A DNA stretch of 40,383 nucleotides from Candidatus Methanomethylophilaceae archaeon. GTDB lineage: Archaea; Thermoplasmatota; Thermoplasmata; Methanomassiliicoccales; Methanomethylophilaceae. Under the pieces are notes generated by a model. That model saw only the letters and a program-made list of their open reading frames with translations, was not told where the DNA came from and did no database searches. The DNA lies in NCBI GenBank assembly GCA_017519045.1, contig JAFWTC010000010.1, positions 1 through 40,383 on the forward strand. Direction: 5' to 3'. Positions 9,988 to 38,522 of this stretch are shown one piece after another (position 1 is the first letter of the stretch; the number at the start of each line of letters is the position of its first letter). The position numbers were made by a program, and so were the translations under genes.

Positions 9988-12900
9988 TCATCGGCAGTCG
10001 TACAGCTTGGGGATTACGTATACCTCCGTATTTATCACGAGTGTCTTAGCGCCTGGTCCGAACACCGTCACTTTCACAGGCACCAGGCCGAGCATGTCCG
10101 TCGCATTCAACGTCATCGACAATTTCCCGTCGGTCCATGACGATTCGAATTCCACGTCGGCTTTCTGGACATATGATATGTAGACAACTCCGTCTTTGAA
10201 GATTGCTAGGCCTTCCGGTGTGGTATCGGAGGAGAGGTCCAGTAGTTCCATGGTGTAATGGCCGTCATTCTGTGCGAAGGCAAAGCATGCGTGCTGACTC
10301 ACAACTTCTGTTGAGGATCTGAGGGCGAGGTAAGGGCTCACCGTGACCAGATCCTGTGTGACCGTTATAACTCCGTCGATGTCGTATCTGACGCCGTTGA
10401 CTACGATTGTGAATATCGATTCCGTGTCAGAATCGTAAGTGAACCCTGTGGTGGTGCCGGCTTTTACCCTATATTCCTCATAGTCCTGGTATTCGGTCTT
10501 GGATTTGTATTCTGCCGTGATTCCCATCGTGCCTATCTCGGGATTATAGATCCTGATTATTTGGTCATAGGCCGTGCTCATGGTGTTGAAGACGGAAGCA
10601 TTGCCTATGACGTCCATTTGGCATACAGGGGAGGTGTCGTTGTAGAAGGTTCCTTCTCCGATTCTATCCCATTTATAGAAGGAGTATTTCGACCCTTCTT
10701 TGAAATGGTATGTGAACTGGAGCTGGTCTCCATATCTGACTTTTACAGGAATGTTCGATTCTCCAGCTGAAACGCTTCCTCCCGTGTAGCTTTCTCCGTC
10801 TGCGCTCACGACCCATTCCCAGGATATCCTGCCCTCGTAAGGTGCTTGGACTTCGACCGTGTATTCTATGTTTTTCCATATTGCTGTAAAATGCACGGTG
10901 CTGGGGACTATGACGTATCTGGAATCGGAATAGTACAGGACGTAGCAGTCCACGGGGTCCTCGTCTTCCATGTACCTCCAATGGTCCACTTTGACAATCT
11001 TTCCCATCGGCAGGATTACGTTCTCGATCACCGTGGTGCCGTCGACGGTTTTGCTTTGGGCATACTCCCAGCCGAGCAGGTCATATCCTTGGCGAATAGC
11101 GTCGCTGAAGTGGAACATATAGCTCTCGCCAGTGGAGAACGTCAGCGTTTGCATAGTGTCGGACTTGACGAATACTGGCATGAACTCGATGGTGGTGTGG
11201 CCCTTGTAGCAGTGACTGTATATCTTCTCTCCGAGCTGATGGAATTCGTACATGTCTGTACCTTCGACGGAAGAGGAGTATCCTACTAGCACATAGTCAT
11301 CGAGGTCTTGTCCCTGTATGCTGAAATATGATTTGTCAATGTCGGGTGCCATGAACCATTGATCCACCGCGGTAGACGTCGATATGAAGTATCCTCTTGT
11401 GTTCTTGCTGATCTGTTGTTGGATCGGGTCGGCATCTCCCCTTCCGCTTTGAATTTGTATGGCCGATTGAGGGGTGTTCACGTTTATGCCGCTTATGTAC
11501 ATATTCACGTTGTTGCGAGAACAATTGACTGCTATGAACGTGTCTGACGCATCGATTACTTCTATAGGCGTTTTGCGTGGGTACCTCTCGTCGGCGCCGT
11601 AGTATTTCTCGCCACTGTTGAGGGACATCCATTGGTATCCAGACTCTAATTTAATGCCTGTGTTTGTGGGAGATGGGATGAACTTGTCTCCAATCTGGCA
11701 GGTTATGGTGTTTTCGTTCGTTATGGTGTTTCCATCGCTGACGATGAACCTCAGGGTCGCCTCCGCATTTTTGTATATGGGGGTCATGAGGACGTTGCCG
11801 CCTTCGTATACGTTGAAGCTGGTGCCTGCGTACGTCTTTCCGTTGTAGCTCCATCCGACGAACTCGGCATCCACCGGGGCATCCGGAGGGGCAGGCGGGA
11901 GAATTATCATCTCTCCAATCGTTCCGCTTTTAGTGATAGGGTCATCAACTTCAGGATAGGCCAGGTATTTTTCCGGAGGTATCACTCTGCCGCTTTCATC
12001 GGCCATCAGTCCTGAATCGCCGATCATCCATCCTGCGAACCTCAGGTTTCCGATCGGAGCGACAATTGGAAGATCAACGACATAGCCGATCTTTGCGTCG
12101 TGTGGGATTGTTCCGACCACGGTGCCCTTGCCTCCCGTGGTGAAGGACAGCGTGGCGGACTCTGATGATCCGAGGGTAACGAACTTCGCGATAAGGGTCT
12201 TGGTTTCCGAGGACGTGAACGTGTAGTCCTTTAGCAACTGGTCGTCGAGATACCAGCCTATGAACTTGTTGTTCCCTTTTCCGATGACCTTGGGAAGAAT
12301 CATGACGTCTCCCACTTTACCTTGCACAGGCGTTCCGTTGGGATAATCAGGCATGCTGCCTAGGTTTTCGTCCATTGAGAAAATCACATATGACACGATA
12401 TCTGATTTTTTGACGGCTACGAAGTTTATGAACTCCTCTTCCGTTCCCGATGTGAACGTGTACTTGTCTTTGTAGAGTATGCCGTCGCTAATCCATCCTA
12501 CGTACTTCCCGGACGGAAGCATTATCGTACCGCCGACGGTTGATGTTACGGAACCGACGACCTCGTTGCCGTCCCAGAACTTGGCTTTTGCGACCATGCT
12601 TTCGTCTATATATACCGCGACGAATTCAATTGGGTCGGAGCTGATTGGTACATACTGCTGTCCAGGGGACAGTTCCACCGTTATTGCAGTGTTGGAGGCA
12701 TCAGCCAGCAGATACAGAATGAGCACATTCGCCTCCTCACTCACCACGTTGTTGAAGTTGGGGACTTCGAAAGTGTCGCCTTCGTATACATATCTCCCGA
12801 TTCCGTCAAGTGCTGAGTTTTGTAAGACGGCGACTTCCCAACGAACGTTGGCGTCGTGGAAATTCAATTTGCAGTATTCGGAAGCATCGGTGAGGAAGCT

Positions 12901-15900
12901 TCCGAATTTCTCGCCATACCTCATGTCGGTGTCGAATTGATCCAGGACGTCGTTGCCGTGGACCAGTCTTACTTTGACCAGGATGCCTTTCCATTTCAGA
13001 TGATAGACAGAATCGTCCGTCAGATGTTCCTCTTCCAAGACATTATCGAACTTCTTTTGCTCATAGGAATCGTACCAAACGCCGTCGCTGGTATAGCCTG
13101 GATTGGCGGATTCAAGAATGGCATCGCTCAAGACGAGCTTGTGCAACGGGCTGTAGTCGTTCAAAAGGCAGTAGCGGTCGCCGACATCATAGACGCGGCC
13201 GTCTATCAGCCAGCCCTTGAAGCCAGCCGATTCCGAGGGTTGGGGCAGTAATATGGTTTGACCGCTCTTATAGGTCTGTGTCGGAGAGCCGTCACGCTCG
13301 TGGGTCTCTATCATCGCACTACGCCCGGTGTCGATGACGACAGGCTTGTTTGAATCCTTGATGGCTGCAGAAGGGGATGGCGTGATGCCGTCAGGCAGAC
13401 GAATCGACTCATCGGCCTCGTAAAGCCTCCCTTCCCAGAGCCATCCGGTGAAATCGACTCCGGTGGAGGGTTCGAAAGTATAAGTGTAGCTGTTGTTTTC
13501 GTACAGCGGGACGAATTCTACAGTCTCGTCGGTGTGGATGACGTATTCGTCGCCGGGTTCGTAGTTCTTCCCTTCAGAATACCATGATACGAATCCGGTC
13601 TGGATCGATGGCTGGGGGAATTTCATGATTTTTCCATACTTGGGGCCCTTATGGTCCTCGTCGACTTCTTCGACTTCTTCCATCTCGGAGCCGTCGGTGA
13701 AAACCAGGGTGACGTCAATCATTTTCTTCTTGTCGTAATAAACGGGAATCGCGAAGACGTTGTTCGCATAAGTGACGGTCATCGTGCAGACTTTCCGCCC
13801 TTCGACGTTTTCGATGCCATAGAAGATGTTGTTTATCATCCAGCCTCTGAAGTTTTCGTCTTCAGGCACAGGTAGGCTTATATCCGCACCCTGGCTGGTG
13901 ACTATCATTTCGCCGTAGGTTATGGATGCCAGCTTCTGTTCGTTGAGCATCACGGCGATGAAGTTCATGCCGTCGGGCAACACGTGGACCGTAGGCATGT
14001 ATCCTTCGGATTTTTCGAACAGATGGCCACGGAAAGCCCACCCAACGAAGGATTCGCTGTCGTTGCCAGGATATTCCGAAAGCTGGATTGTATCTCCGAC
14101 CCTTTTTTCGACAATGGATATAATCGTCCCGTTCTGGTCTGCGAACTTGACCTCTACGGTTTCGCTGCTCTCGTCAGGTCCCGGAATGGCAATGAACGAC
14201 ATGGATTCCTGATAAAGGACGACAGTTTCTCCGACACCGTACTCCATTCCGTTGAAGGCCCAGCATACCGCGCCAGTGGGGAGGGCGGGAACATGAACCA
14301 GGCTACCTATGTGCCCGTGTACTACATAATTGCCGAATGCGGCCTTCGCCGCAACGCTCGCGTTCTCGTAGACCGCTTCGGCGTGGGCCGAGTTCCTTGT
14401 GGTCACATCTACAGGGACGACCTGGTCGCCGCTAGGGATCTTGAACGTCGCTTTGAAAGCGTATTTGGCATAGAGTTCCAAGTTCTCTGTCACCGAGGTG
14501 GTGGTGTCGAAGTACCTGGTGCAGCCAGGATCCCTGTACCATCCAGAGAAGTACTCGTACGTCATGGGGTATTGGGATCTGGCTATCTGGTCCCCGTGGG
14601 AAACCGTTATCGTCTTAGCGAGGGTGTAGGGAGGCACAGGTATCGTGACCTCACCTCCTGCCTGTAGGCTGTCCAGCATAGGGTAGTCATAACTCTGGGC
14701 GTAGAATCTGACGGTATACGACGGCATCTTTTCGAGATGAATCGTGAGAGAGAACTTGTTGGTCGTTCCATCGTTGATGACGAAGTGCAGTTTGGGCGCC
14801 TTGCTGAGGTCCGAGACTCCGCTTACGTCGAATCTGAGCGTGGCGCTGAATGCCCCGGTGAGTGCGAAGTCCTTGTGGATGCAACTGTTCAGGGTTCCTC
14901 CCTTTCCGACGGTCCCTACCCAGCCTTGTGATCCGTAATCGTTCAGGTCCGTGTGCATTTCTACGAGGATGCCGCTGTAGTTTTCTACGGAGTCCAGGTT
15001 CAGTATGCCGTTTTGGTATCCGTACGGTATTACGAAGGTCCCGTAGCCCTCATAGGTCAAAGGCATCGATATGGATTCTTTAAGCAAGATGGTCATATCA
15101 TGCCCGATTTCGGTAGCCCCGGCGAAAGAACTCTTGGATTCGGAACAGTATATTCCCACACTGACCATGTTAGTGCACACGGGGACTTGCACCAGGATTC
15201 CGCCAATGTTCATTGTCATATATTCCTGGAATTCCAGGACGATTTCGCCTATGCGGCCCGTGTAGCTCTGATTGCCGTAATATTGCAGGCGTATGTTGAT
15301 TTTGTATGCGTCCTGTCCCCCGGTGCCGTCGCATGCCTCGATGGTTCCGCCGACGATGATGCCGTCGACTTCGTCAAATGTTAGTACGCCATCTCCTGAA
15401 CCGAATCCGAAGGATAGGAGAAAATCGTCTGGCCCTTGTACCGAATTTACAGAATTGACGAATGTGGTGCTGGTCTCATTCATGACGATGCTCGCTCCGG
15501 TATAGCGTATGGCGCTACCGTCCCTTACACGGATAAGCTCGAACGTGATTGGCGATCCGTCGACGTCGGTGCTTAGGACGTCGTCGCTTGAATCGCCGGT
15601 CGCCACCAGAGACACTGTATGTTTCATAGACCCTATCATGGTCCACAGCTTGAATGCGTCGTGACCAGGCCCTTCGACTTTGTCAACGAACGGTATGAGC
15701 TCGAGGAGACCCTCTTTGTATTGCATGAACCGCCCTTCGGAGCCGAGATACCCGTATGCGAAAGCGCCGTAGAAATCGTCTGAGATGTTGTGCTCCAGGA
15801 TTGTGTATCCGCGGATGTTCCCGTACTTCTCCAGATTGCCTCCATGGTCGTCCACGCTGTCATAGGCGGTGTTGAACATCACGCCGGCGCTCAATTTGAT

Positions 15901-18900
15901 GGAGTTCATCGGATTGGACATCGATGTTTTTGCCATCGTGCTGTCGACGTAACTGCCGTAGCCCTTGACGTTATGCATGTCGGAATAGAGGTCGAGCGAG
16001 GACCTTCCAATGAGCCTCAGGTCTTCTATATCGTACAGCGACATCATGTCGGAGGGAGATGGGTCCGAACTGCTGGCTCTTCCTGAAAGGGCTATTGACG
16101 AGCGCACAACGTCGACGACGGAGGCACCTTGAATGGACTCCATGGTATGGGCGGGCTTGTAGTCCTTTATCGTCACGGTCCTCGTCCCAGGGATGAAGAC
16201 GTCAGACTCTTCAGTTCCAACGAGACAGGAATTTCCGGCTCCCATCACGCTTTTGCCCACGTATGCTCCCTTAGAGCCGTCAAACACGATGCTGGAATTA
16301 CCGTAAACTAGCACCTGTGTGGAGGTGACAGATTCGTCCCTGACCCCTATGTCTCCGCCGCCGTAAATCGAGTAGCCTATCCACGACTTCCCTTCTATGG
16401 AGATGTGGGTGTCGCCTGTCATGTATTTCATAAGCCCCCCACCGTATACGGATCCAGCGATTTGTACCCCTTTGTTGTTTTCAGCTGTAGTGCCTTCTAC
16501 GTCGACGTAAGTGTTCCCTTCAACTGGGCCTCTTGCTCCTGCGCCGTAAACGCATGATCCTATTGTCGCATTGTCTAAGATGTCTACGTGTATCGCTCTG
16601 GCTGTGACCTTGGCATAGTCTTCATAATGATCTACTTCGTCGTCATACAGGAATTCATAAGTGAGTGTGGTGTTTTTGTTGGTGAACCATTGAGCGTATA
16701 TCTTATCTCCTGACGGGGATATGAGTATGAGGTTTGTGAAGTCTTGCTCGTCTCCTCCGACCAATGTTTTGTTAGAGGATAATTTGACTCCTCTTCCGGA
16801 ACCGAACACGTCTCCGTCGATTACGGCATTTTCGCATACCGTCACAAAAATCTCGTTGCAATCAGTAGTCGCCACGGGGCCGCGGTCCACCATTCCCGTT
16901 ACATCATTTGAGGTGATGTACCAGTTGTCCACGGGTACACCGTTGTATGACGAAATAGCAGGGACGCTTTTGCCTCCGCCGTAGACATTGCCCTCTACGT
17001 GGGCATTTCCAGATACTGTCACATTTATATCGCCACTAAGGTAGCAGCGACTTCTTCCAGTGCTGTCTGGGAAGCTTTTGTATGGATCTAGACGTTGTCC
17101 TTTGTAGTCGCTGTGTTTTTGTTTTTCGAATCCCCCGGATCCTCCGCCGTAAACGCTTCCGAGTACTGTTCCGCCGGATATATCTACGGTGATGCTGTCT
17201 ATGGGCAGGGTGTTCAAATCATCCATAAGGCCGATCGTCGACCTCATTCCTCCGCCGTAAACGTCGCAGACAGTACCGCCTCTGATCTCTACTTGAATTT
17301 TTCCTCCGTCTATCATCGAGGCGTATTTCGATTCGACGTAGGTGTCGTACCCTCCACCGCAGACGGTCGCAGCGTTCCCAGAATCTTTTACGATAAGGTG
17401 AGTTCCGCCAACACTTTTGTAGTGCTGTTTATTATTGGCATCGGTATTGATTCCGCACATCATGTGGGTGATCGTGGAACAGCCCGACAGTTCTACATTA
17501 GCGGTACCTTTCACCTCGGCGCTGTAGACCCTTCCGCCTCCTTGGACATCCCATGCCAATGATTCTCCGGAAACATATAGGTTGGAGTCGCGGCACACGA
17601 TAGCTTGGGTTCCATGTCCTGTGCTTCCTCCGCCAATCGTTACGACTCCCTCAGTGATATTTAATCTATCATAGTTGGTGCCTTGCGGCTTTACATTGAC
17701 CTTGTAAGGCCATTCTGGCAGGATCGGAGCTGTTTTTGAGATTTTGAACGGAGTGGGGTCTGTGAAGGACTCTCCGGTAAGGAAAGTCATTGCATAACTA
17801 TTCGGTACCATGTAGGAATTGACAATGTAGGAATGCGTAGAACCGCTGATACTTGATGCATTCCCGGCTGAGCCACCTGCAAATGTATCGAGGACTGTGG
17901 CGTTTTTCAGTACGGTGTAAGTGGAGCAATAGTCTTTTGGCTGAGTTTGCGATATGTACTTCGTTGTAGTGTTTGGTCCGCTTTTGTATTTTAGTTCTGG
18001 ACCTTTGTTCTCAACTTCCCCGATGTTTCTACTGAAATTGCCGCCGCTGACATTGTACCAGGTTCCGCTATGGATGAGCAGGAGGGTACTAATTTTTTCT
18101 TCATCTTCTCTGTAAGGAAAAACGTTCACATTTTCGTGGTCGTTGTTGATAATGTCGCTGGTTATGGCTCCACCTCTCAGTACGGCATACCCAGACGCTG
18201 CACCGCCGTTGTTAAACGACAGGATGCCTGTGCCTATGATTAAGGGGTACCCGCAGCCGGCTATGCCGTTTTGAGCATGTCCGTGTTTTCCGTCACTCTT
18301 GAAGTTGAAACCTATGTCGTCAATTATTGTGGCTCCGCCCATTTTGAATTCATATTTAATTTGGAGGGTTCCATTGTCATCGCATCCTTCGATGCATCCC
18401 ACTTTGCCAGGTCCAGGCTCTGAACGTATCGTCATAGGTTTAGAGGTCGTGACGCCGGACACATGAATTGAATCGCCGTGCTTTACAAGGAGGATATTGG
18501 TGTATGGGTCATTGCTAAAATAGTTTTGAACGTCTCTCAGAACTTTGCTATGGGTGTCTGTTTCTATTTGTATGCCGTCTAATGGGGATGTCGATGTATG
18601 GACCGTGGCTTGCAACAGATTAGGCTCTGGATTACTGACAATTGCCCAGTTATTTACAGTGCTCCATGTGGCGTAGATGTGCATTACGTCGTTCTCGGAG
18701 ACAGCCTTCTTAGTTGTCCCGTCCATGCGGTATGACGTATACTTGCCTGCGCTGTTTTTTTCGATAAATAGCATGTTGTCTTTCAAGTCGTTCTCGGACA
18801 GTACTTCGCCAGGGTAATGTACGGGGACGTCGCCTGCATCTTTATATTTCCATCCGGTGAATACTACCGTGTTGCCGACTTTGTAATCCTTGATCTCGAG

Positions 18901-19269
18901 CCAGTTCCAGTTAATTCCTTTTGATGATGCTGTATCTTCCGAGGTGGGCGTGGTTATTGTGCCTTTCCATAATTGTGGGTTATACTCTGTGGAGACTATG
19001 CTGCCGTAGTAGATGACATCGACGTATTCTTTGTTTGAATTTACATCGTTGTAATCGCTGCTTTTGGGAAGAGTGTAATTTAGATGGTACCTTACTACGT
19101 GGTACTCCCCGACATACCCATTGTTGGGTTTTAGAACGGCACCTGAGGTCTGGTTCGATATTGGGAAACAGGACACTAGCAATATGGCCACTGCGAATAC
19201 GGCTATTAACGCCATCGTAGACTTTCTTCTAGCGCTGGGGGAAGTCTTTTTAGATAAGGGCACGGCCAT
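9988..19269 (-). CDS. Giant exported adhesin-like protein (about 3,093 residues)
   Basis: One uninterrupted frame. The ATG at 19269 is chosen because GAGGTGA lies about 5 nt before it; an in-frame ATG at 19293 adds eight residues. A basic N-terminus is followed by a hydrophobic segment (about 19-36), so it is exported. Residues about 70-200 hold one InlB-like repeat. Residues about 540-1030 form a Gly-rich beta-helix-like region with nine V-Y-G-G-G-type turns. Residues about 1520-2490 carry about ten InlB B (Listeria-Bacteroides) repeats of the form F-x-G-W-x-x-x-G-x-x-Y; further repeat-like domains lead to the C-terminus. There is no C-terminal membrane anchor, sortase motif or V-H-S-G-L tail. 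InlB repeats are common in adhesins of gut microbes, so attachment to host, food particle or partner cells is likely. The 5' third is clearly lower in GC than neighbouring genes. Confidence 0.85.
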   Translation of the reverse strand: MAVPLSKKTSPSARRKSTMALIAVFAVAILLVSCFPISNQTSGAVLKPNNGYVGEYHVVRYHLNYTLPKSSDYNDVNSNKEYVDVIYYGSIVSTEYNPQLWKGTITTPTSEDTASSKGINWNWLEIKDYKVGNTVVFTGWKYKDAGDVPVHYPGEVLSENDLKDNMLFIEKNSAGKYTSYRMDGTTKKAVSENDVMHIYATWSTVNNWAIVSNPEPNLLQATVHTSTSPLDGIQIETDTHSKVLRDVQNYFSNDPYTNILLVKHGDSIHVSGVTTSKPMTIRSEPGPGKVGCIEGCDDNGTLQIKYEFKMGGATIIDDIGFNFKSDGKHGHAQNGIAGCGYPLIIGTGILSFNNGGAASGYAVLRGGAITSDIINNDHENVNVFPYREDEEKISTLLLIHSGTWYNVSGGNFSRNIGEVENKGPELKYKSGPNTTTKYISQTQPKDYCSTYTVLKNATVLDTFAGGSAGNASSISGSTHSYIVNSYMVPNSYAMTFLTGESFTDPTPFKISKTAPILPEWPYKVNVKPQGTNYDRLNITEGVVTIGGGSTGHGTQAIVCRDSNLYVSGESLAWDVQGGGRVYSAEVKGTANVELSGCSTITHMMCGINTDANNKQHYKSVGGTHLIVKDSGNAATVCGGGYDTYVESKYASMIDGGKIQVEIRGGTVCDVYGGGMRSTIGLMDDLNTLPIDSITVDISGGTVLGSVYGGGSGGFEKQKHSDYKGQRLDPYKSFPDSTGRSRCYLSGDINVTVSGNAHVEGNVYGGGKSVPAISSYNGVPVDNWYITSNDVTGMVDRGPVATTDCNEIFVTVCENAVIDGDVFGSGRGVKLSSNKTLVGGDEQDFTNLILISPSGDKIYAQWFTNKNTTLTYEFLYDDEVDHYEDYAKVTARAIHVDILDNATIGSCVYGAGARGPVEGNTYVDVEGTTAENNKGVQIAGSVYGGGLMKYMTGDTHISIEGKSWIGYSIYGGGDIGVRDESVTSTQVLVYGNSSIVFDGSKGAYVGKSVMGAGNSCLVGTEESDVFIPGTRTVTIKDYKPAHTMESIQGASVVDVVRSSIALSGRASSSDPSPSDMMSLYDIEDLRLIGRSSLDLYSDMHNVKGYGSYVDSTMAKTSMSNPMNSIKLSAGVMFNTAYDSVDDHGGNLEKYGNIRGYTILEHNISDDFYGAFAYGYLGSEGRFMQYKEGLLELIPFVDKVEGPGHDAFKLWTMIGSMKHTVSLVATGDSSDDVLSTDVDGSPITFELIRVRDGSAIRYTGASIVMNETSTTFVNSVNSVQGPDDFLLSFGFGSGDGVLTFDEVDGIIVGGTIEACDGTGGQDAYKINIRLQYYGNQSYTGRIGEIVLEFQEYMTMNIGGILVQVPVCTNMVSVGIYCSESKSSFAGATEIGHDMTILLKESISMPLTYEGYGTFVIPYGYQNGILNLDSVENYSGILVEMHTDLNDYGSQGWVGTVGKGGTLNSCIHKDFALTGAFSATLRFDVSGVSDLSKAPKLHFVINDGTTNKFSLTIHLEKMPSYTVRFYAQSYDYPMLDSLQAGGEVTIPVPPYTLAKTITVSHGDQIARSQYPMTYEYFSGWYRDPGCTRYFDTTTSVTENLELYAKYAFKATFKIPSGDQVVPVDVTTRNSAHAEAVYENASVAAKAAFGNYVVHGHIGSLVHVPALPTGAVCWAFNGMEYGVGETVVLYQESMSFIAIPGPDESSETVEVKFADQNGTIISIVEKRVGDTIQLSEYPGNDSESFVGWAFRGHLFEKSEGYMPTVHVLPDGMNFIAVMLNEQKLASITYGEMIVTSQGADISLPVPEDENFRGWMINNIFYGIENVEGRKVCTMTVTYANNVFAIPVYYDKKKMIDVTLVFTDGSEMEEVEEVDEDHKGPKYGKIMKFPQPSIQTGFVSWYSEGKNYEPGDEYVIHTDETVEFVPLYENNSYTYTFEPSTGVDFTGWLWEGRLYEADESIRLPDGITPSPSAAIKDSNKPVVIDTGRSAMIETHERDGSPTQTYKSGQTILLPQPSESAGFKGWLIDGRVYDVGDRYCLLNDYSPLHKLVLSDAILESANPGYTSDGVWYDSYEQKKFDNVLEEEHLTDDSVYHLKWKGILVKVRLVHGNDVLDQFDTDMRYGEKFGSFLTDASEYCKLNFHDANVRWEVAVLQNSALDGIGRYVYEGDTFEVPNFNNVVSEEANVLILYLLADASNTAITVELSPGQQYVPISSDPIEFVAVYIDESMVAKAKFWDGNEVVGSVTSTVGGTIMLPSGKYVGWISDGILYKDKYTFTSGTEEEFINFVAVKKSDIVSYVIFSMDENLGSMPDYPNGTPVQGKVGDVMILPKVIGKGNNKFIGWYLDDQLLKDYTFTSSETKTLIAKFVTLGSSESATLSFTTGGKGTVVGTIPHDAKIGYVVDLPIVAPIGNLRFAGWMIGDSGLMADESGRVIPPEKYLAYPEVDDPITKSGTIGEMIILPPAPPDAPVDAEFVGWSYNGKTYAGTSFNVYEGGNVLMTPIYKNAEATLRFIVSDGNTITNENTITCQIGDKFIPSPTNTGIKLESGYQWMSLNSGEKYYGADERYPRKTPIEVIDASDTFIAVNCSRNNVNMYISGINVNTPQSAIQIQSGRGDADPIQQQISKNTRGYFISTSTAVDQWFMAPDIDKSYFSIQGQDLDDYVLVGYSSSVEGTDMYEFHQLGEKIYSHCYKGHTTIEFMPVFVKSDTMQTLTFSTGESYMFHFSDAIRQGYDLLGWEYAQSKTVDGTTVIENVILPMGKIVKVDHWRYMEDEDPVDCYVLYYSDSRYVIVPSTVHFTAIWKNIEYTVEVQAPYEGRISWEWVVSADGESYTGGSVSAGESNIPVKVRYGDQLQFTYHFKEGSKYSFYKWDRIGEGTFYNDTSPVCQMDVIGNASVFNTMSTAYDQIIRIYNPEIGTMGITAEYKSKTEYQDYEEYRVKAGTTTGFTYDSDTESIFTIVVNGVRYDIDGVITVTQDLVTVSPYLALRSSTEVVSQHACFAFAQNDGHYTMELLDLSSDTTPEGLAIFKDGVVYISYVQKADVEFESSWTDGKLSMTLNATDMLGLVPVKVTVFGPGAKTLVINTEVYVIPKLYDCR
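11780..14700 (-). repeat. InlB B (Listeria-Bacteroides) repeat array in the giant protein
   Basis: At the protein level about ten degenerate units share a core F-x-G-W-x-x-x-G-x-x-Y followed by a short beta-rich stretch ending in F-x-A-V or similar. Examples are G-F-K-G-W-L-I-D-G-R-V-Y, K-Y-V-G-W-I-S-D-G-I-L-Y and E-F-V-G-W-S-Y-N-G-K-T-Y. Units are 60-110 residues apart and are diverged at DNA level, so this is an old array rather than a recent tandem expansion. Confidence 0.75.
16235..17367 (-). repeat. Nine V-Y-G-G-G turn repeats in the giant protein
   Basis: Nine copies of a turn [VI]-[YCFM]-G-[GAS]-G recur about every 25-85 residues, usually preceded by [VI]-x-G and followed by a strand with alternating hydrophobics and a T-x-[VI]-x-[IV] pattern. 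This is the look of a right-handed beta-helix (pectin-lyase-like) fold. At DNA level the antisense CCGCCGTA recurs. I know no named repeat that corresponds exactly. Confidence 0.6.
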
Positions 19270-19797
19270 GCAATCACCTCGTGATATCATCATCAGCCTG
19301 TTGAAGATTTCTTTGTTGTGTTAAAAAATTTTTGGAGCATTACAGGAGTTCTGATGGCATGACATGCAGTCTATGACCTTTGCAGGAATTGTGGGTTTTT
19401 ATTGCTGTTGACGAGGTTACGGATGTTTTTGATTCTTATCGTTAACCTCAAGAAAATATTTCGCTTGGCGGGATTATTGAGGGGATATTATGATAATATG
19501 CAGGTTGTGGGATTGCATGGACATGTTTCAATCATGTTTGTTGGAGCAGCTAAGTAAGATGCAAGGCTCTTTTTATCGTTCAAGACTAGTACATGCTGAT
19601 CCATGTCTTTCAAAGTGGATTTCTGTTGTTGGTAGATTTTTTTTTGTTTTTGAACAATCACCTTTTTTATTTATAATTCCACATTTGTTAATTCTTCAAG
19701 GGCGTGTTTGAAATTATTGAAGTAAACAGTATAGCAACAGTCTGGTGTATACGGTTGTTTCGATCAAATTGAATGATTTTTGGTTTTCGAGGATCAT
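19270..19797. other. AT-rich intergenic region upstream of the giant gene
   Basis: More than 500 nt without a convincing gene, far richer in A/T than the rest of the window, with long T runs (around 19637-19660). It should hold the promoter of the giant gene: minus-strand AAAAATTTTTTAA at 19321-19333, about 55 nt before its ATG, with GAGGTGA at the ribosome-binding site. A plus-strand frame at 19490-19711 has no family resemblance. No tRNA or small RNA was recognised. Confidence 0.5.
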
Positions 19798-28709: not shown

Positions 28710-28745
28710 TTTATATGGGTTATGGCATTAGTAAAAAGCGGTCGC
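28710..28745 (+). promoter_or_regulatory. TATA element for the aminotransferase gene
   Basis: TTTATATG at 28710-28717 lies about 33 nt before the ATG at 28746 in the short gap between divergent genes, implying a leader of only a few bases. No Shine-Dalgarno precedes the ATG, which also favours 28746 over the in-frame ATG at 28722. Confidence 0.5.
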
Positions 28746-29822
28746 ATGAGGTTGTTCACCGTCGGTCCAGTGATGATGTTCCCAGAGGTCCTGGAGGCCT
28801 CCGGCAGGCAGCTGCCGTACTTCAGGACGGAGGAGTTCTCGAAGATGATGCTCGAGTCGGAGTCCATGCTCAAGGGGCTCCTCGGCGCCGGGCCCGACTA
28901 CAGGACCGCCTTCCTCACGGCTTCGGGGACCGGCGCGATGGAGGCCGCCGTCGCCGGGCTGTTCTCGGCCTCCGACAGGTTGCTCGTGGTCGCCGGAGGC
29001 GGGTTCGGGAGGCGCTTCGGGGAGATATGCGACGTCCACGGCATCTCCCACGACGACATCGTCCTGCCCTTCGGCAAGAAGCTGGAGGCGTCCGACCTGG
29101 ACCCCTTCCGCGACGAGGAGTACGCCGGCCTGCTGGTTAACATGGACGAGACCTCCACCGGACAGCTCTACGACATCCGCATGCTCTCGGACTTCTGCAG
29201 GTCCAAGGGGACGCTTCTCGTGGTGGACGCGATCAGCGCCTTCCTGGCGGACCCCATAGACATGCGCAGGGACGGCATAGACGTGCTAATAACAAGCTCC
29301 CAGAAGGCGCTCTCTCTGGCGCCCGGGATCTCCATCGTCGTGCTCAGCCGCGACGCGTACGAGGGGAGGCTGCTCCGCAACGACTCCCATCTCTACTATC
29401 TGGACCTGAAGCGTCACATCAAGGACCAGGAGAGGGGGCAGACCCCGTTCACCCCCGCGGTCGGGACTCTGATAGAGCTCAACGTGGCTCTCCGTTCGAT
29501 TCGCGACGCCGGCATAGACGACGTGGTCGCCCGCACCGCGCGCCTGGCGGCCTACTTCAGGAAGGGGGCGGCCGAGAGGGGGATAAGGATGCCGGACTAT
29601 CCGCTCTCCAACGCGGTGACCCCCCTGATCTTCGATTCCGGGGCATACGGCGTGTTCGAGAGGCTCAGGAAAGAATACGGCGTCACCGTGACTCCCAGCG
29701 GAGGCGACCTCAGGGACAGGCTGCTACGCGTGGGGCACATGGGGAATCTCTCCGAAGAGGACTACGACGTCCTGTTCAAGGCCTTGGACGACGTCCTCGG
29801 CCGTCGATTCTGGATGCTCTGA
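28746..29822 (+). CDS. Class V PLP-dependent aminotransferase (AGT/PhnW-like)
   Basis: A 358-residue fold-type I enzyme. The N-terminus L-F-T-V-G-P-V matches the alanine-glyoxylate / serine-pyruvate / 2-aminoethylphosphonate transaminase group. It also has a T-A-S-G-T-G-A-M-E phosphate-binding loop, V-V-D-A-I-S-A-F with the pyridine-binding Asp, and S-S-Q-K-A-L with the PLP lysine at about residue 190. It transfers amino groups using pyridoxal phosphate. Located between a LicD gene and a flippase, it might make an amino compound (such as 2-aminoethylphosphonate or an amino acid) used to decorate surface glycans; this is inference. It could equally serve in serine/glycine metabolism. Stop TGA, one base before the next ATG. 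Confidence 0.8.
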   Translation: MRLFTVGPVMMFPEVLEASGRQLPYFRTEEFSKMMLESESMLKGLLGAGPDYRTAFLTASGTGAMEAAVAGLFSASDRLLVVAGGGFGRRFGEICDVHGISHDDIVLPFGKKLEASDLDPFRDEEYAGLLVNMDETSTGQLYDIRMLSDFCRSKGTLLVVDAISAFLADPIDMRRDGIDVLITSSQKALSLAPGISIVVLSRDAYEGRLLRNDSHLYYLDLKRHIKDQERGQTPFTPAVGTLIELNVALRSIRDAGIDDVVARTARLAAYFRKGAAERGIRMPDYPLSNAVTPLIFDSGAYGVFERLRKEYGVTVTPSGGDLRDRLLRVGHMGNLSEEDYDVLFKALDDVLGRRFWML

Positions 29823-29823
29823 C

Positions 29824-31380
29824 ATGTCGGGCGACGGCGGATTCTTCGACAGGACGCTGGTGAACACCGTCACCAACGTGATCAAGACCGTGGTGATGGC
29901 GGTCATCGGCGTCATGATGGTGCCGTACTACCTGGACGTCCTGGGGATGTCCACGTACGCGGTGATACCGCTGGCGGCCACGATGACGTCCTACGTCATG
30001 ATAATGGCCGAGTCGCTCACCGAGGCCTGCTCCAGATACTCCATAATGGCGGTCGGGAAGGGCGACAGGCGGGAGTCCCTGAGGACGTTCAACTCCGCCT
30101 TCTTCGGCATCTTGAGGGTGTGCGCCGTGCTGATCCCGGTCGTCCTCCTCCTGTCTTTCGCATCCCCGTACGTGTTCGACGTGGGCCCCAACGCCGCGTT
30201 CGAAGTGCAGGCGCTGTTCCTGTCGGTGCTGCTGTCGTCCCTGATAGTGGTCGTGACGTCCTCGTTCTCCTTCGTCTTCTACGCGTTCAACCGCATGTCG
30301 CACCTGTTCATCACGAAGATGCTGTACTCGGTGGTCCAGGTCGCCGGGGTGTTCCTTCTCTTCAGCTTCGGCACCCCTTCGCTGGTCGACGTCGGGATAT
30401 CGTACCTGGCCTCGGCGGCGGTCTTCTTCATGCTGACCTACGTCCTGGCCAAGAGGACGTATCCGGTCCTCAAGGTCAGGCGCCCCTGCTACGACGGCGG
30501 CCTCTTCAGGAAGATGGGTTCCCTCGGGGCGTGGACCATCGCCCAGAAGGTCGGAGGCCTGCTGTACATCCAGGCGTCCATAGTGATGGTCAACGTCTTC
30601 GTCGGCGGGGAGGCGGGAGGGGGGTTCGCCATCGTGGCTTCGCTGGTTTCCATGATGCATACGGCCAGCTATTCCCTGACCGTGTCCCTGGAGCCCTCGA
30701 TATACCGCCTTTACTCGGAGGGCGACATGGAGGGCCTCCGCTCGCTTCTGCGGACCTTCGTGAAGCTCGTGGCGCTGTTGTTCGCCATGCCCACGGCGTT
30801 CCTGCTCGTCTTCGCCCCGGACGTGATGACGGTGTGGGTGGGGGAGGAGAACGCCGGCCTGGCGGACCTGTTCCGCGTGGCCATGGTCGGCGATCTGGCG
30901 GTCTGCGCCTCGACGGTGGTCGAGTGCGTGCCGATCGTCATGCTCAAGGTGAAGAGGATAACGGCCTTCACCGTCCTGGCGGGGCTCGCGAACATAGCGC
31001 TGTCCGCCGTGCTGATGTCCCTGGGATGGGGGTCCATGTCCGCGATGTGCGTCTGGACGGTATGCATCACCGTCCTGGCGGTTTTCGCGTTGGCCTACGT
31101 GGGCGGCATCGCCGGAGCCTCCCTGCTGTCGCGCGTGGGGGCCGCCTACGTGCTGTGGGCGGTCTGCCTGGCGGCCTACTGGCTGGTCTCGACGTCGGTG
31201 GACCTGAGCTCCGGATGGCTGATCCTGTTCGCGGCCGCGGCGGCTGCGATGCTGGTGCATATGCTGGTGGTTTCGCGCCTTCTCGATCGCGACGAGAAGG
31301 ACGAGATCTCCAGATACGTCCCGGACTCCGTGAGAAGATACCTGGACATGATATGGCGACGTCGGTCCAGCTTCTTGTAG
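29824..31380 (+). CDS. Polysaccharide flippase (Wzx/MATE-like membrane protein)
   Basis: A 518-residue integral membrane protein with about 12-14 hydrophobic helices spread over its length and an N-terminal pattern (D-R-T-L-V-N-T-V-T-N-V-I-K-T) typical of the Wzx/RfbX-type lipid-linked oligosaccharide flippases. It would move a lipid-linked glycan across the cytoplasmic membrane. It starts one base after the aminotransferase stop, so the two are one transcription unit. The frame ends at a TAG (31378-31380) inside the antisense end of the convergent CDP-alcohol phosphotransferase, just past the 10-mer GCGACGTCGG. The last few Arg-rich residues may be run-on. Confidence 0.8.
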   Translation: MSGDGGFFDRTLVNTVTNVIKTVVMAVIGVMMVPYYLDVLGMSTYAVIPLAATMTSYVMIMAESLTEACSRYSIMAVGKGDRRESLRTFNSAFFGILRVCAVLIPVVLLLSFASPYVFDVGPNAAFEVQALFLSVLLSSLIVVVTSSFSFVFYAFNRMSHLFITKMLYSVVQVAGVFLLFSFGTPSLVDVGISYLASAAVFFMLTYVLAKRTYPVLKVRRPCYDGGLFRKMGSLGAWTIAQKVGGLLYIQASIVMVNVFVGGEAGGGFAIVASLVSMMHTASYSLTVSLEPSIYRLYSEGDMEGLRSLLRTFVKLVALLFAMPTAFLLVFAPDVMTVWVGEENAGLADLFRVAMVGDLAVCASTVVECVPIVMLKVKRITAFTVLAGLANIALSAVLMSLGWGSMSAMCVWTVCITVLAVFALAYVGGIAGASLLSRVGAAYVLWAVCLAAYWLVSTSVDLSSGWLILFAAAAAAMLVHMLVVSRLLDRDEKDEISRYVPDSVRRYLDMIWRRRSSFL

Positions 31381-32081
31381 AGGACCGCGAACCTGAAGGC
31401 CGCCCCGATCCCGAAGCCCGCTCCGTACAGGAGGACGAAGAGCCACATCTGGTCCATGATCGCGAAGACGACTATCAGGGACATCATGTTCGTGAACGTC
31501 AGGGGGTTGAAGGTCATCATCCTGCGGAACCAGCCTCCGATGGCCTCCCCCTCTATCTCCGCGCTCGATCCCACGCTCTCCGCCGGCTTCACCCTGCGGT
31601 AAAGGGTGGGCATGAGCATTATCAGGACGCATCCCAGCCCTCCCGCGACGCCGAGGGCGATGTACGCCTCGGGCGGAAGGATGTCGAACCAGGGGCATCC
31701 CCCCGTCCTCCACACGCCGATCCCGGCGCAGATGAACAGCAGGGGGTAGTTCACGGAATGGTTGATCAGATCCATGAACGCCCCGCGGGTCGACCTCATC
31801 CCCTTGAGCCTCGCTATCCCGCCATCGGTATAGTCCAGGGCGTACCCGAACAGCCATCCGAGGCCGGCCGCGATGTTGAGGACCCAATTGTTCTAAAGAA
31901 GGAGGAGGGAGGAGGCCAGCATCATCAGGCCCCAGGCCCAGGTTATCTGGTTGGGCGTGACCCTGGTCTTCACCAGCACCCTGGCCATCTGGTAGCCCAG
32001 GTATGCGAAGACGTGCTATCCGGTGAAGTACTCCCCTTCGCAGTTTATGGAAGCCTTCACCTCCTCCTTGGTGAATGCCAC
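31176..32081 (-). CDS. CDP-alcohol phosphatidyltransferase with two in-frame TAG codons
   Basis: The frame is intact except for TAG at 32016-32018 (codon 22) and 31893-31895 (codon 63), counting from a GTG at 32081. Between the ambers lies V-K-T-R-V-T-P-N-Q-I-T, the typical membrane-entry motif of this family. After the second comes D-Y-T-D-G-G-I-A-R-x8-G-A-F-M-D-L-I-N-H, the CDP-alcohol motif with His replacing the last Asp, then hydrophobic helices. Without reading through both TAGs the catalytic motif is cut from the N-terminus; a short frame from ATG 31799 would start inside the motif. It probably joins a CDP-activated lipid to an alcohol, or the reverse. The conserved part ends near 31345; the tail to a TAG at 31176 overlaps the flippase gene. 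A pseudogene is the alternative. Confidence 0.7.
31356..31365. repeat. 10-mer GCGACGTCGG at convergent junction (copy 2)
   Basis: This is the same 10-mer as at 5912 and 38413, here where the flippase gene and the amber-containing phosphotransferase gene meet tail to tail. Flanking bases are not similar among the three copies. Confidence 0.4.
31893..31895 (-). other. Second in-frame amber codon, candidate pyrrolysine
   Basis: TAG lies between L-L-L-L and N-N-W-V-L in a loop between the first two membrane helices of the CDP-alcohol phosphotransferase. The reading frame is family-like on both sides. Confidence 0.6.
32016..32018 (-). other. First in-frame amber codon, candidate pyrrolysine
   Basis: TAG lies between E-Y-F-T-G and H-V-F-A-Y-L in the N-terminal cytoplasmic part of the CDP-alcohol phosphotransferase. 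The family's P-N-Q-I-T motif follows in the same frame about 20 codons later. Confidence 0.55.
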
Positions 32082-32200
32082 GCCCTGCCTTAGGCGGTAT
32101 TTCCTATAACTACTTCCGCATGTTTTCCGATACCATTTACTATCGCCTAGGGCATGGATAAGACGGCGGGGAGGTGTCTCCCTGCGCCCCGGAGGACGTG

Positions 32201-34486
32201 ATGTTCAGGAGACCAGACGCCGTCGCCGTGATGTCGGCGGCCCTTTGCGGGCTGATACTCGTGGGGGCACTCGCATCCTGCATGCCGGGCCTGTACACGT
32301 ATGGAGCGGATGCGGAGTTCTCCGACGGGAAGTGCCGTTTCACCGTGGATTCTCCGGGTTCGCAGCCGTATTCCGCCCTGGTCCTGTCGCACGGCTCCCT
32401 CCCGGCGGTGGAGGACCTCCGCATCTATCTCGATCCAACGCATGAGGAGTACTTCCGGGACGCCTACAAGGGCAGCCACGCATACGGCCTCAGCCAGGAG
32501 TACTATGCCGAGCAGGCGGTCAAGATGGCGTCCGTCAGGGGGTTCCACGGGGCCTCCACGTGCGGTCCCGCGGAACTGTCCGCGTTCCTGAAGGAGACGC
32601 TCCCGGATCCCTCAGGATGCGGAGTCCTGGTGATGACCTATTCCCTTCCGGCCGATGTGTACAAGGGAAGCGGGTCGGACCCCATCCTCGAATGGGTCGA
32701 GGCCGGCGGGACCCTCTTCTGGATGAGCTCGGAGATCGGCCGCTACTACGTCGACGGCTCAGGGCTCCACGAGGTCCCCGGCGGGCAGGGCCTGTTCCTC
32801 GGGGACAAGAAGGTCAACACGTCGTCCAGGACATCGGACAGGCCGTCCTCCGACCTGACCGGCGCGCTCTCCATGCGGAGCAGCAACCTCATGTTCTCGA
32901 TACCCTCGGAAGGAGGCCTGGCCCTGGGATTCGGCGACGGGGAGTATTCCAGCATCGCCTTCTCTCCGCTGGGCGAAGGCGCGGTCTGCGTCCTGGGGGG
33001 AGGGTTCGACATGAACCAGCTGGACGACCTGGGGCAGATCCTCGGGGCGGGGGTGAACCTGGGGACGTCGTTGGTGTCGGTCAGCGAAGGCACCACCGAC
33101 GGCTCCGGGGAGCTGGAGATGGGCATCGGGGACTCGGTGTACATCTACATCGGAGGGACGTATGCGAGATTCGGGGAGGATTTCCATGTCCGACGCCGTC
33201 GCGTTCGTCAAGAGGCACCCGCTGGCGCTCCTGCTGGCCGTCGGAATCGCCATCCGCCTGCTGCTGTCCCCCATTGCTTTGCCGTACGACATCGACTACT
33301 GGGCCCTGACCCTGCGCAACATGCAGGTGGGGGAGGGCTTGTACGGCGTGGAGGGGTACTTCTACACCCCGGTGTGGGGATACGTCTTGGGGCTGTCCAG
33401 CCTGTTCCAGTCGTTCATCCTGGACATGGGGGAGACTTCCGAAAGGGTGGCGGAGGCTCTGTTCACCGAGGACATATCGGGATTCAGGCTGTCCGCCACG
33501 GTGCAGTCCGTATCGTTCAACCTCCTGGTCAAGGTCCCGCTGATAATATGCGACGTCCTCCTGGCCCTGTCGGTCTTCTATCTGTCAAAGTGCCTGCTGG
33601 GCGAGGAGAAGGCCCTGAAGGCGGCCGCGCTGACCTTCCTGTGCCCCCTGTCCATAGGCGTCACGTCGTTCATCGGCATGCCCGACACGATCTCGGCCCT
33701 CTTCTCCGTACTCACCGTGATCCTCCTCATCGACAGGCGGTTCTTCCTTGCGGGGATGACCTTCGCCGTGGCGGTATGGACGAAGTTCTTCCCGGCTTTC
33801 CTGGTGTTCTGCCTGGTATCCTACGTGATCATCGTCAGCGGCGACAGGAGGACGGCGATGAAGGGGGTGGCCATGGCGGCCGTCGGATCGGTGATGATGA
33901 CCGCGGCGCTGTTCCTGCCCCAGATCGCCGAGGGGAATCTGGACAGGTGCTTCCAGTTCATCTCCGACAGGGTGTCCGTGTCGGCGTCGGGGACGATCCT
34001 GGACGTCTTCGAGTCGACGTCCCGCGTCGCAGTCTACCTGGCGGCGCTGGCCGGGTCGTTCCTGCTGTCCATCAGGCTGTTCCGTGCCGGGAGGGAGAAT
34101 TGCGACCAGAAGCTGGTGAAGTACTGCTTCGCGGTGGTGCTGTTCTGCCTGCTGTACCCTCCCGCGCCCCAGTACGTGGTCCTGCTGGTGCCGTTCCTGG
34201 CGTTCATGGCGGCTCAGGACCGTCGCTACATGCTGCCGTGGTGGATGCTGTCGATCTCGGCTTTCGTGTTCCTTACCCCGACGAACGCGGACATGCTCCT
34301 GCCGATAGCCGCCTGGACCGACCTGTTGAGCGTCGAATCCGTGATGGACGTGTTCAACGCGTTCAGGACCAGCCTGGGGCCTTTCACCGTGATGGAGCTG
34401 CATTACGCGATCGGAGGCATCATACAGTATTCGTCGCTGATTCTGGCGCTGCTCACTCTGCTTCGCCTGATTCCGTGGAAATCTGA
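32201..34486 (+). CDS. Exported or membrane-anchored protein of unknown function; run-on 3' end
   Basis: The ATG at 32201 has GGAGG 5 nt upstream. An N-terminal hydrophobic helix (A-V-A-V-M-S-A-A-L-C-G-L-I-L-V-G) is followed by about 290 residues. These contain a C-G-V-L-V-M-T-Y-S-L-P strand and a G-G-T-L-F-W-M-S-S-E turn, resembling the glutamine-amidotransferase-like folds of some envelope proteins; no family is certain. The credible part ends near 33185, where the glycosyltransferase gene starts 6 nt after its own GGAGG. The frame has no stop there and runs 1.3 kb in a second frame of that gene to a TGA at 34484. The extra 430 residues are Arg/Pro-rich and not protein-like, so a stop has probably been lost or a base mis-called. 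Confidence 0.5.
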   Translation: MFRRPDAVAVMSAALCGLILVGALASCMPGLYTYGADAEFSDGKCRFTVDSPGSQPYSALVLSHGSLPAVEDLRIYLDPTHEEYFRDAYKGSHAYGLSQEYYAEQAVKMASVRGFHGASTCGPAELSAFLKETLPDPSGCGVLVMTYSLPADVYKGSGSDPILEWVEAGGTLFWMSSEIGRYYVDGSGLHEVPGGQGLFLGDKKVNTSSRTSDRPSSDLTGALSMRSSNLMFSIPSEGGLALGFGDGEYSSIAFSPLGEGAVCVLGGGFDMNQLDDLGQILGAGVNLGTSLVSVSEGTTDGSGELEMGIGDSVYIYIGGTYARFGEDFHVRRRRVRQEAPAGAPAGRRNRHPPAAVPHCFAVRHRLLGPDPAQHAGGGGLVRRGGVLLHPGVGIRLGAVQPVPVVHPGHGGDFRKGGGGSVHRGHIGIQAVRHGAVRIVQPPGQGPADNMRRPPGPVGLLSVKVPAGRGEGPEGGRADLPVPPVHRRHVVHRHARHDLGPLLRTHRDPPHRQAVLPCGDDLRRGGMDEVLPGFPGVLPGILRDHRQRRQEDGDEGGGHGGRRIGDDDRGAVPAPDRRGESGQVLPVHLRQGVRVGVGDDPGRLRVDVPRRSLPGGAGRVVPAVHQAVPCREGELRPEAGEVLLRGGAVLPAVPSRAPVRGPAGAVPGVHGGSGPSLHAAVVDAVDLGFRVPYPDERGHAPADSRLDRPVERRIRDGRVQRVQDQPGAFHRDGAALRDRRHHTVFVADSGAAHSASPDSVEI

Positions 34487-37410: not shown

Positions 37411-38522
37411 GGGTCCGTCAGGCCGTCGTCATGGTGGGCGGGAAGGGGACCAGGCTCCGTCCGCTCACCGAGAACCGTCCCAAGCCCGTCCTCCCGGTGG
37501 CCGGCAGGCCTTGCATATGGTACCTGCTGAGGTCCATGGCGAGGGCGGGGATCGAGGAGATAATCCTGGCCTGCGGATACCGCTCGGAGATGATCAGGGA
37601 GGCGCTGGGCGACGGGTCCGACCTGGGCGTCAGGCTCGTCTATTCGAACGAGGACGAGCCCCTCGGCACCGGAGGGGCGCTGAAGATCCTGGAGGGCTCC
37701 CTGGACGAGGTGTTCCTGGCCGCCAACGGGGACGTGTTCGCCGACATAGACGTCACTGGGCAGGTTGAACGCCATTTCTCTTCCGGCGCCGACGTGACCA
37801 TAGCCTTGGCCTCCGTGCCCAACCCCTGGGAGTTCGGGGTCGCCAGGGTGTCCGACGACGGGTTCATCACCGAGTTCAGGGAGGGGATGAAGCCCGACGA
37901 GGTCTTCTCCGACATGATCAACGCGGGGGTCTACGTCGTGAACAGGAGCGTCCTCTCGTCCGTCCCGAAAGGGGTCTTCTACGACTTCTCGAAGCAGCTC
38001 TTCCCCGAGATAATCGGGAGGGGCGGAAGGCTTGCGGGATTCCGCATCCAAGGCGTCTGGATGGACGTCGGCCGCCCGTCCGATTACATGAAGGCCAACG
38101 TCCTGGTCGCGTCGAGGGAGACCCGCGTCATAGGGATGGCGTGCGGAGGGTCCCTCGTCAACGTCTACATAGGAAACGGGGCCGCGTCCGTCAATTCCCA
38201 TCTGGACTCCGTCTGCCTCATGAACAGGGCCGTGGCCACCGGTTGCGTCATGAGGTGCGTCGTGATGCTGGAGGGGAGCTCGGCCGATGATGCCGTGATC
38301 GAGGACAGCATCATAGGCCGGAAATGCAGGATAATGCCTGGCGCGAAGGTCAGGAACTCGGTCCTCGCGGACGGCGAGACGGTCGGCCGGGGGGAGTCCA
38401 GGGACGACGGCCGCGACGTCGGAGCCTCTTCGTCGTGCCGACGGGGTCCCAGATGTTCATGTCGTGCTTCCCTTCGGCGACGTATCTCTTGGCCTCGGAG
38501 CGGGCCTTGGACTCCAGCCTGA
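37407..38522 (+). CDS. Sugar-1-phosphate nucleotidyltransferase; run-on C-terminus
   Basis: The ATG at 37407 overlaps the previous stop (ATGA). The N-terminal domain carries G-G-K-G-T-R-L-R-P-L-T (11-21) with K-P at 26-27, the NTP-binding signature, then A-N-G-D-V-F with the metal Asp and F-E-F-G-V-A-type strand W-E-F-G-V-A. After it comes a left-handed beta-helix of hexapeptide-like repeats (V-I-E-D-S-I-I-G). It makes an NDP-sugar such as GDP-mannose, GDP-heptose or dTDP/UDP-glucose. The nearby heptose-kinase-like gene suggests a GDP-heptose route. The conserved part ends near 38390; the last 45 residues are Arg/Ser-rich and overlap the convergent glycosyltransferase gene by 173 nt. Confidence 0.82.
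   Translation: MRVRQAVVMVGGKGTRLRPLTENRPKPVLPVAGRPCIWYLLRSMARAGIEEIILACGYRSEMIREALGDGSDLGVRLVYSNEDEPLGTGGALKILEGSLDEVFLAANGDVFADIDVTGQVERHFSSGADVTIALASVPNPWEFGVARVSDDGFITEFREGMKPDEVFSDMINAGVYVVNRSVLSSVPKGVFYDFSKQLFPEIIGRGGRLAGFRIQGVWMDVGRPSDYMKANVLVASRETRVIGMACGGSLVNVYIGNGAASVNSHLDSVCLMNRAVATGCVMRCVVMLEGSSADDAVIEDSIIGRKCRIMPGAKVRNSVLADGETVGRGESRDDGRDVGASSSCRRGPRCSCRASLRRRISWPRSGPWTPA

Follow-up and report, generated by a model that had tools for sequence, protein, structure and literature searches.

In-frame TAG codons and a CGA end in a CDP-alcohol-phosphotransferase-like gene suggest a genetic code altered at two codons in a genus of Methanomethylophilaceae

The window, a 40,383-nucleotide stretch of DNA from a Candidatus Methanomethylophilaceae archaeon (GenBank assembly GCA_017519045.1, contig JAFWTC010000010.1), contains a CDP-alcohol-phosphotransferase-like gene with two in-frame TAG codons and no standard stop at its end. 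We consider it very likely that this is a functional gene read under a code altered at two codons, in which UAG would be decoded as pyrrolysine (Pyl) and CGA would act as a stop. That CGA serves as a terminator in the genus is the claim that we hold most firmly, judging from codon usage and from the alignment of orthologous gene ends. Taken jointly, the inferences that CGA is a fourth stop codon read by the release factor aRF1, that TAG is a sense codon for Pyl, and that aRF1 regulates its own synthesis through a CGA at codon 67 are likely to be correct. Peptide, ribosome-profile and RNA evidence form no part of the basis for the two-codon explanation. The positions of the features discussed here are collected in Table 1.

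Table 1. Features of the window, with positions counted from its first nucleotide.
Feature	Position	Strand	Remarks
TrmJ-type RNA methyltransferase, CGA at end of coding stretch	1023-1025	-	
Second CDP-alcohol phosphotransferase, CGA at end of coding stretch	5913-5915	+	convergent with PriL; CGACGTCG again
PriL (DNA primase large subunit), CGA at end of coding stretch	5918-5920	-	
Class V aminotransferase gene, putative CGA stop	29805-29807	+	TAA/TGA within 3 codons in orthologues
Polysaccharide-synthesis type flippase gene	29824-31359	+	tail to tail with phosphotransferase-like gene
Flippase, putative CGA stop	31357-31359	+	TGA one codon away in orthologues
Palindrome CGACGTCG	31357-31364		contains the putative CGA stops of both convergent genes
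CDP-alcohol-phosphotransferase-like gene	31362-32081	-	GTG start, putative CGA stop, 239 aa, 2 TAG codons
Phosphotransferase-like gene, putative CGA stop	31362-31364	-	TGA in G005 orthologue
TAG codon 63	31893-31895	-	private to this genome (G000)
TAG codon 22	32016-32018	-	start of predicted juxtamembrane helix JM1; also in two related species
TATA-like box gttatagg	32103-32110	-	~25 bases 5' of GTG; kept in G001, not evident in G005
Neighbouring plus-strand gene, putative CGA stop	33191-33193	+	TGA at same codon in orthologue
Glycosyltransferase 2 gene, putative CGA stop	38419-38421	-	TGA at same codon in three orthologues

A sequence-only reading of this DNA had described two in-frame TAGs in an otherwise intact gene, and this description was borne out: both TAGs are present in the minus-strand frame that opens at the GTG, and apart from them no TAA, TGA or frameshift occurs across its 239 codons. 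The frame passes the curated cut-off for the PF01066 (CDP-OH_P_transf) profile, with a score of 24.4 bits against a threshold of 22, and an AlphaFold model built with nine sequences (pLDDT 82, pTM 0.81) contains the six-helix fold together with the juxtamembrane helix. The best structural matches of this model (TM-score 0.70-0.75, by query) are chains of AF2299, a CDP-alcohol phosphotransferase from Archaeoglobus fulgidus (PDB 4O6M, 4O6N, 4Q7C) that is also a sequence relative of a TAG-free homologue of our gene. The TATA-like box near the GTG suggests, by inference, that the gene may be expressed from a leaderless transcript.

The signature of this enzyme family comprises eight residues, D1xxD2G1xxAR...G2xxxD3xxxD4, the last of which is the proposed catalytic base (PMC4634129). 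The phosphotransferase retains D1 to D3, as does AF2299, along with both glycines, the alanine and the arginine, but it does not meet the full signature: the D4 position, an aspartate in AF2299, is occupied by His108 (31758-31760, minus strand) in all nine of the sequences compared, namely the phosphotransferase and eight homologues. An aspartate stands at D4 in the 11 other phosphotransferase loci matched by the same comparison. Neither His108 nor the CGA end had been noted in the sequence-only reading. The histidine may represent a change of catalytic base; as the D4 aspartate is missing, we refer to the gene as CDP-alcohol-phosphotransferase-like. Two further differences from AF2299 are that the archaeal gene studied here lacks the fused cytidylyltransferase domain, and that an arginine in AF2299 corresponds to the TAG at codon 22.

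The two TAGs differ in their distribution. TAG22 is common to three species, the source genome (G000) and two relatives, G001 and G005, which share 85-90% and 76-77% identity with it, while an alignment of homologues places lysine (AAG/AAA) or arginine at codon 22 in the six TAG-free homologues. At codon 63, both of the relatives that share TAG22 have TTC (Phe), and a further TAG at codon 211 is private to one relative, with CAG in the others. Over the whole gene, dN/dS is 0.13 for G000-G001, 0.14 for G000-G005 and 0.11 for G001-G005; values before and after TAG22 are similar, and codons 1-21, which lie upstream of it, give 0.04-0.12. Synonymous divergence among the three species is considerable (dS 0.45-1.4, and ~1.2 for G000-G005), and only 32% of 91 fourfold sites are identical in all three. 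An unconstrained triplet would therefore have remained unchanged with a probability of ~0.03, and so TAG22 was probably kept. With three species, the evidence that TAG22 is maintained by selection rather than merely tolerated is suggestive only. In the predicted model TAG22 stands at the start of a helix spanning residues 19-36 that corresponds to JM1, which in PIP synthase flanks the donor-lipid groove and whose truncation yielded a much less active construct (PMC4634129). Translational restart downstream of TAG22, at ATG33, was considered and rejected, as G005 has a leucine at this residue and selection acts on codons 1-21. Nor was there any excess of tandem stops following TAG, which would have hinted at leaky termination.

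The suggestion that TAG is translated, most likely as Pyl, is supported by the wider genome. Along with a complete pylT-pylS-pylB-pylC-pylD cluster, in which pylS exceeds its profile cut-off and is adjoined by a tRNA-Pyl (cta), the source genome has two mtmB genes with TAG. Both relatives that share TAG22 likewise have mtmB with TAG, pylB is above cut-off in G001, and pylS was identified in 28 of 31 genus genomes. In ~1.26 Mb of sequence we counted ~82 TAGs in 59 coding stretches, in agreement with published reports of amber genes, whereas TAG accounts for only 0.7% of terminators. Pfam domains extend through the TAG of the genes for UMP kinase, polyprenyl synthase, LarC, prephenate dehydrogenase and two ABC transporters; TAG is found within essential genes, and it interrupts single-copy UMP kinase and GGPP synthase. 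In contrast to TAG22, the TAG of UMP kinase is private to this genome, with Glu, Val or Thr at the site elsewhere. Together with the selection measured around TAG22, these observations make Pyl the most likely reading of TAG in the phosphotransferase, although this remains an inference in the absence of a peptide.

The further expectation that Pyl outside methylamine methyltransferases would be unusual did not hold. An archaeal code that reads all TAG as Pyl was reportedly described in 2025. Within this order, Pyl proteins have already been predicted among ordinary genes, lipid enzymes included: digeranylgeranylglyceryl phosphate synthase is one of the predictions for Ca. M. alvus, which has 16 extra predicted Pyl proteins (PMC4153887), geranylgeranyl reductases are among those for ISO4-H5, which has 46 amber genes (PMC5011839), and ISO4-G1 has 25 amber genes (PMC4824259). 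These genomes resemble ours in having pylTSBCD and in seldom using TAG as a stop. The phosphotransferase is thus a new instance of something already described; it differs from the earlier predictions in that TAG22 is common to three species, falls on a conserved basic residue, and has had selection measured on both sides of it. Several other loci deserve mention. Two adjoining ABC transporter genes (L089:6388-10137) have TAG at a similar place in each ATPase domain; in the RNA polymerase subunit A'' frame (L088:2173-3654) a TAG lies ~10 codons before the profile match and may belong to a spacer or N-terminal part; and, close to the pyl cluster, a BREX BrxD-like ATP-binding protein (L052:12370-13632) falls under the curated cut-off.

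At its 3' end, the phosphotransferase frame of G000 and G001 continues antisense into the convergent flippase gene, which itself lacks a proper stop. The G005 orthologue ends ...YRRLE-TGA, and the coding stretch in G001, as in G000, ends in CGA. A deletion removing both stops of the convergent pair was considered, but was abandoned once CGA had been recognised at each of the two ends. Palindromes, either CGACGTCG or CGATCG, are often common to convergent genes and give each of them a putative CGA stop; such sites were seen in the window at 5913-5920 and 31357-31364, and elsewhere at L063 ~1060, L082 ~15240, L139 ~7900 and L114 ~6610. A PhnW/AepZ-like aminotransferase (window 28722-29822) adjoins the flippase and phosphotransferase genes, and a phosphonate lipid pathway suggested by this neighbour was rejected, since PEP mutase was not found in the genome. 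Cytidylyltransferases or LicD-like genes adjoin the phosphotransferase homologues in G019, G020 and G005. The window also contains a very long open frame on the minus strand (9988-19293, 3101 aa).

The use of CGA at gene ends was observed to extend well beyond the window. Counts were made on the ~1.26 Mb that was read in stretches from the 1.9 Mb source genome, and gene ends were placed by a model of codon pairs, trained on the same genome, in which pairs containing CGA were scored flat. Inside genes, CGA accounts for 77 of the 320,135 codons in frame, compared with a trinucleotide frequency of 24 per 1000 (ratio 0.01, or ~100-fold depletion), and only TAA and TGA are more depleted. Some of the ~77 CGA codons left within called coding stretches may reflect joined genes, not all of which were checked. 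Among terminators lying no more than a few codons from the coding end, by contrast, CGA ranks second (176 cases, 20.5%) after TGA (629, 73.1%), ahead of TAA (49, 5.7%) and TAG (6, 0.7%). There are 67 genes whose coding stretch ends at least 60 codons before any standard stop, and CGA lies near the coding end in 59 of them, where 0.1 would be expected from codon usage.

Comparison with orthologues provided an independent check of the gene-end model, albeit one that covers only 17 genes and UMP kinase. An orthologous standard stop was found at offset 0 or +1 from the CGA in 12 of the 17 testable genes and within two codons in 13, and for two CGA-ended genes all 15 orthologues have TGA, at offset 0 in at least one of the genes. 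In almost all of 26 genus genomes the end of UMP kinase falls on one and the same residue: six have CGA and 19 have TGA, two of the latter one codon later, while the remaining genome has a leucine at the stop site and CGA three codons further on. Genomes other than the source were represented by samples of 4-40 kb each. In these, CGA occurs inside genes at 0.2-1.1 per 1000 in the genus, as against 3.2-5.3 in the order's outgroup families. As a terminator it is rare in several genus members (0-5% in 20 kb samples), and its share of stops ranges across species from ~0 to 25%.

We then considered which factor might read CGA. In 24 of 25 genus genomes a single CGA occurs in frame within the aRF1 gene ahead of its end, and its place is invariably codon 67 (numbered from YDFKK), a position at which outgroups have arginine, mostly encoded by other triplets. 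The preceding codon is always GCT or TCT, each of which makes up ~5% of its codon family in G000, whereas several other third positions near CGA67 vary. The exception is G028, which has no CGA at codon 67 and whose aRF1 gene appears to end at CGA. If, and only if, CGA is a stop would aRF1 carry a conserved in-frame stop of its own. Such an arrangement is familiar from bacterial prfB, where an in-frame UGA limits the synthesis of RF2; as in prfB, the factor's own stop codon would lie early in the frame in a fixed context, but here the factor is archaeal aRF1, the codon is CGA, not UGA, and no shift occurs in the frame, so that read-through by a tRNA-Arg would be needed in place of +1 frameshifting. 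In a genome of another genus in the same family (G034, L206), the only CGA in aRF1 stands at codon 14, in a different context, and may be an ordinary arginine codon or an independent case.

The NIKS motif of aRF1 is changed to NIRS in G000 (L153) and G005 only, and this substitution was therefore rejected as a general cause of CGA reading. Beside the NIKS loop, genus-specific residues occur at columns 42 and 45, with Gln replacing Tyr/Phe/Leu and Ala replacing Ser; these are candidates for involvement in CGA reading, for which there are no activity data. G000 still has a tRNA-Arg whose anticodon, TCG, is cognate to CGA (L115:11590-11662), and loss of this tRNA was thus not observed; by our reading, an A-A mismatch closes its anticodon stem. 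The persistence of this tRNA may leave CGA ambiguous instead of an outright stop, and is the chief objection to a clean reassignment.

Our proposed explanation is as follows. UAG would be decoded as Pyl by tRNA-Pyl and PylS. Pyl22 would take the place of a conserved Lys/Arg where the juxtamembrane helix flanking the donor-substrate groove begins, and would have been kept in three species, while Pyl at codon 63, and at codon 211 in a relative, would be private, tolerated replacements. Translation of the phosphotransferase would end at CGA, which may have lost its arginine role in this genus and then been captured as a fourth stop, most likely through reading by aRF1. At low aRF1 levels, CGA67 would be read by residual tRNA-Arg(UCG), yielding the full-length factor; when aRF1 is plentiful, termination at codon 67 would limit the factor's own synthesis. 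Direct reading of CGA by aRF1, as opposed to editing or rescue, is inferred without activity data, and we hold it with good confidence. The autoregulatory loop, which is also an inference, we regard as probable.

Other explanations of the same observations have to be weighed against this one. The phosphotransferase might be a decaying pseudogene, with the TAGs as nonsense mutations and the lost stop as a further lesion, and the privacy of one TAG and the missing standard 3' stop would fit such decay. Further lesions in relatives would have supported it, yet none of the three species has a TAA, TGA or frameshift; the dN/dS of 0.13 between G000 and G001, both of which have TAG22 and the CGA end, the TAGs in single-copy UMP kinase and GGPP synthase, and the termination of ~20% of all genes at CGA leave the pseudogene reading with almost no support. 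We give just as little credence to an unrelated suppressor tRNA that would insert another amino acid, such as Lys, Gln or Tyr, at TAG. Relatives do have the neighbouring sense codons CAG and AAG at two sites, but the sole CTA-anticodon tRNA in the ~1.26 Mb scanned is tRNA-Pyl, and the full Pyl pathway is present.

Three further alternatives concern CGA. Were it still an arginine codon, the apparent ends would be followed by C-terminal extensions to the next TGA, TAA or TAG. The cognate tRNA is available and outgroup families use CGA as sense, but such extensions would reach up to 500 codons and often run antisense to a convergent gene, orthologues stop exactly at the CGA sites, and the depletion inside genes is ~100-fold; we find this scarcely credible. 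Editing of the messenger from CGA to UGA, followed by ordinary termination without any reading of CGA by aRF1, would account for the exchange of TGA and CGA at homologous ends, and in plant organelles C-to-U editing does make UGA stops from CGA. We know of no messenger editing of this kind in archaea, however, and hundreds of genes would need it, which makes editing highly improbable. Finally, CGA might be an unassigned, starved codon at which ribosomes stall and are rescued without recognition by a release factor. Its extreme depletion inside genes and the lack of a genus-wide change in the NIKS motif are compatible with this, but the cognate tRNA-Arg(UCG) is present in G000, rescue at ~20% of gene ends would be costly, and the conserved internal CGA of this genus sits in the aRF1 gene in a fixed context, which points to the release factor. 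We therefore judge stalling and rescue to be very unlikely, and prefer termination at CGA by aRF1.

To our knowledge, the code changes described in cellular genomes are those in which a stop codon gains an amino acid or amino acids are swapped, and no change from sense to stop is known outside mitochondria. In mitochondrial codes, AGR, TCA or TTA have been turned into stops. The case proposed here resembles these in that a sense codon would have become a terminator, but it concerns a cellular archaeal genome and the codon CGA, while TAG went the opposite way, to sense. A search of the literature, which did not extend to preprints and most subscription papers, found no report of CGA as a stop in archaea. 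A screen of 250,000 genomes reported no case in which an archaeal sense codon had been given a different amino acid, and by its own account is unable to detect new stop codons (PMC8629427). The bacterial reassignments of CGA, CGG and AGG that it describes are similar in that a rare arginine codon changed meaning, but there another amino acid was gained, whereas here a stop would be gained (PMC8629427).

If our explanation is true, this would be the first case in a cellular genome of a sense codon reassigned to stop, and one whose evolutionary intermediate is still visible in the residual tRNA-Arg(UCG) and in the uneven share of CGA stops across species. Standard annotation would overrun about one-fifth of gene ends, often antisense over neighbouring genes, and would cut genes at TAG. 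A membrane lipid enzyme with Pyl at a conserved basic position would offer a concrete case in which to ask whether Pyl outside methyltransferases is selected or tolerated. The genus, which consists of gut methanogens, is taken to include isolate ISO4-G1 (our G006), from which a pyrrolysyl-tRNA synthetase employed for genetic code expansion was derived (PMC10094482). With a cultured strain in existence and ~30 related species that appear to be at different stages of the change, the order of events, namely codon loss, release-factor capture and tRNA loss, would be open to direct testing.
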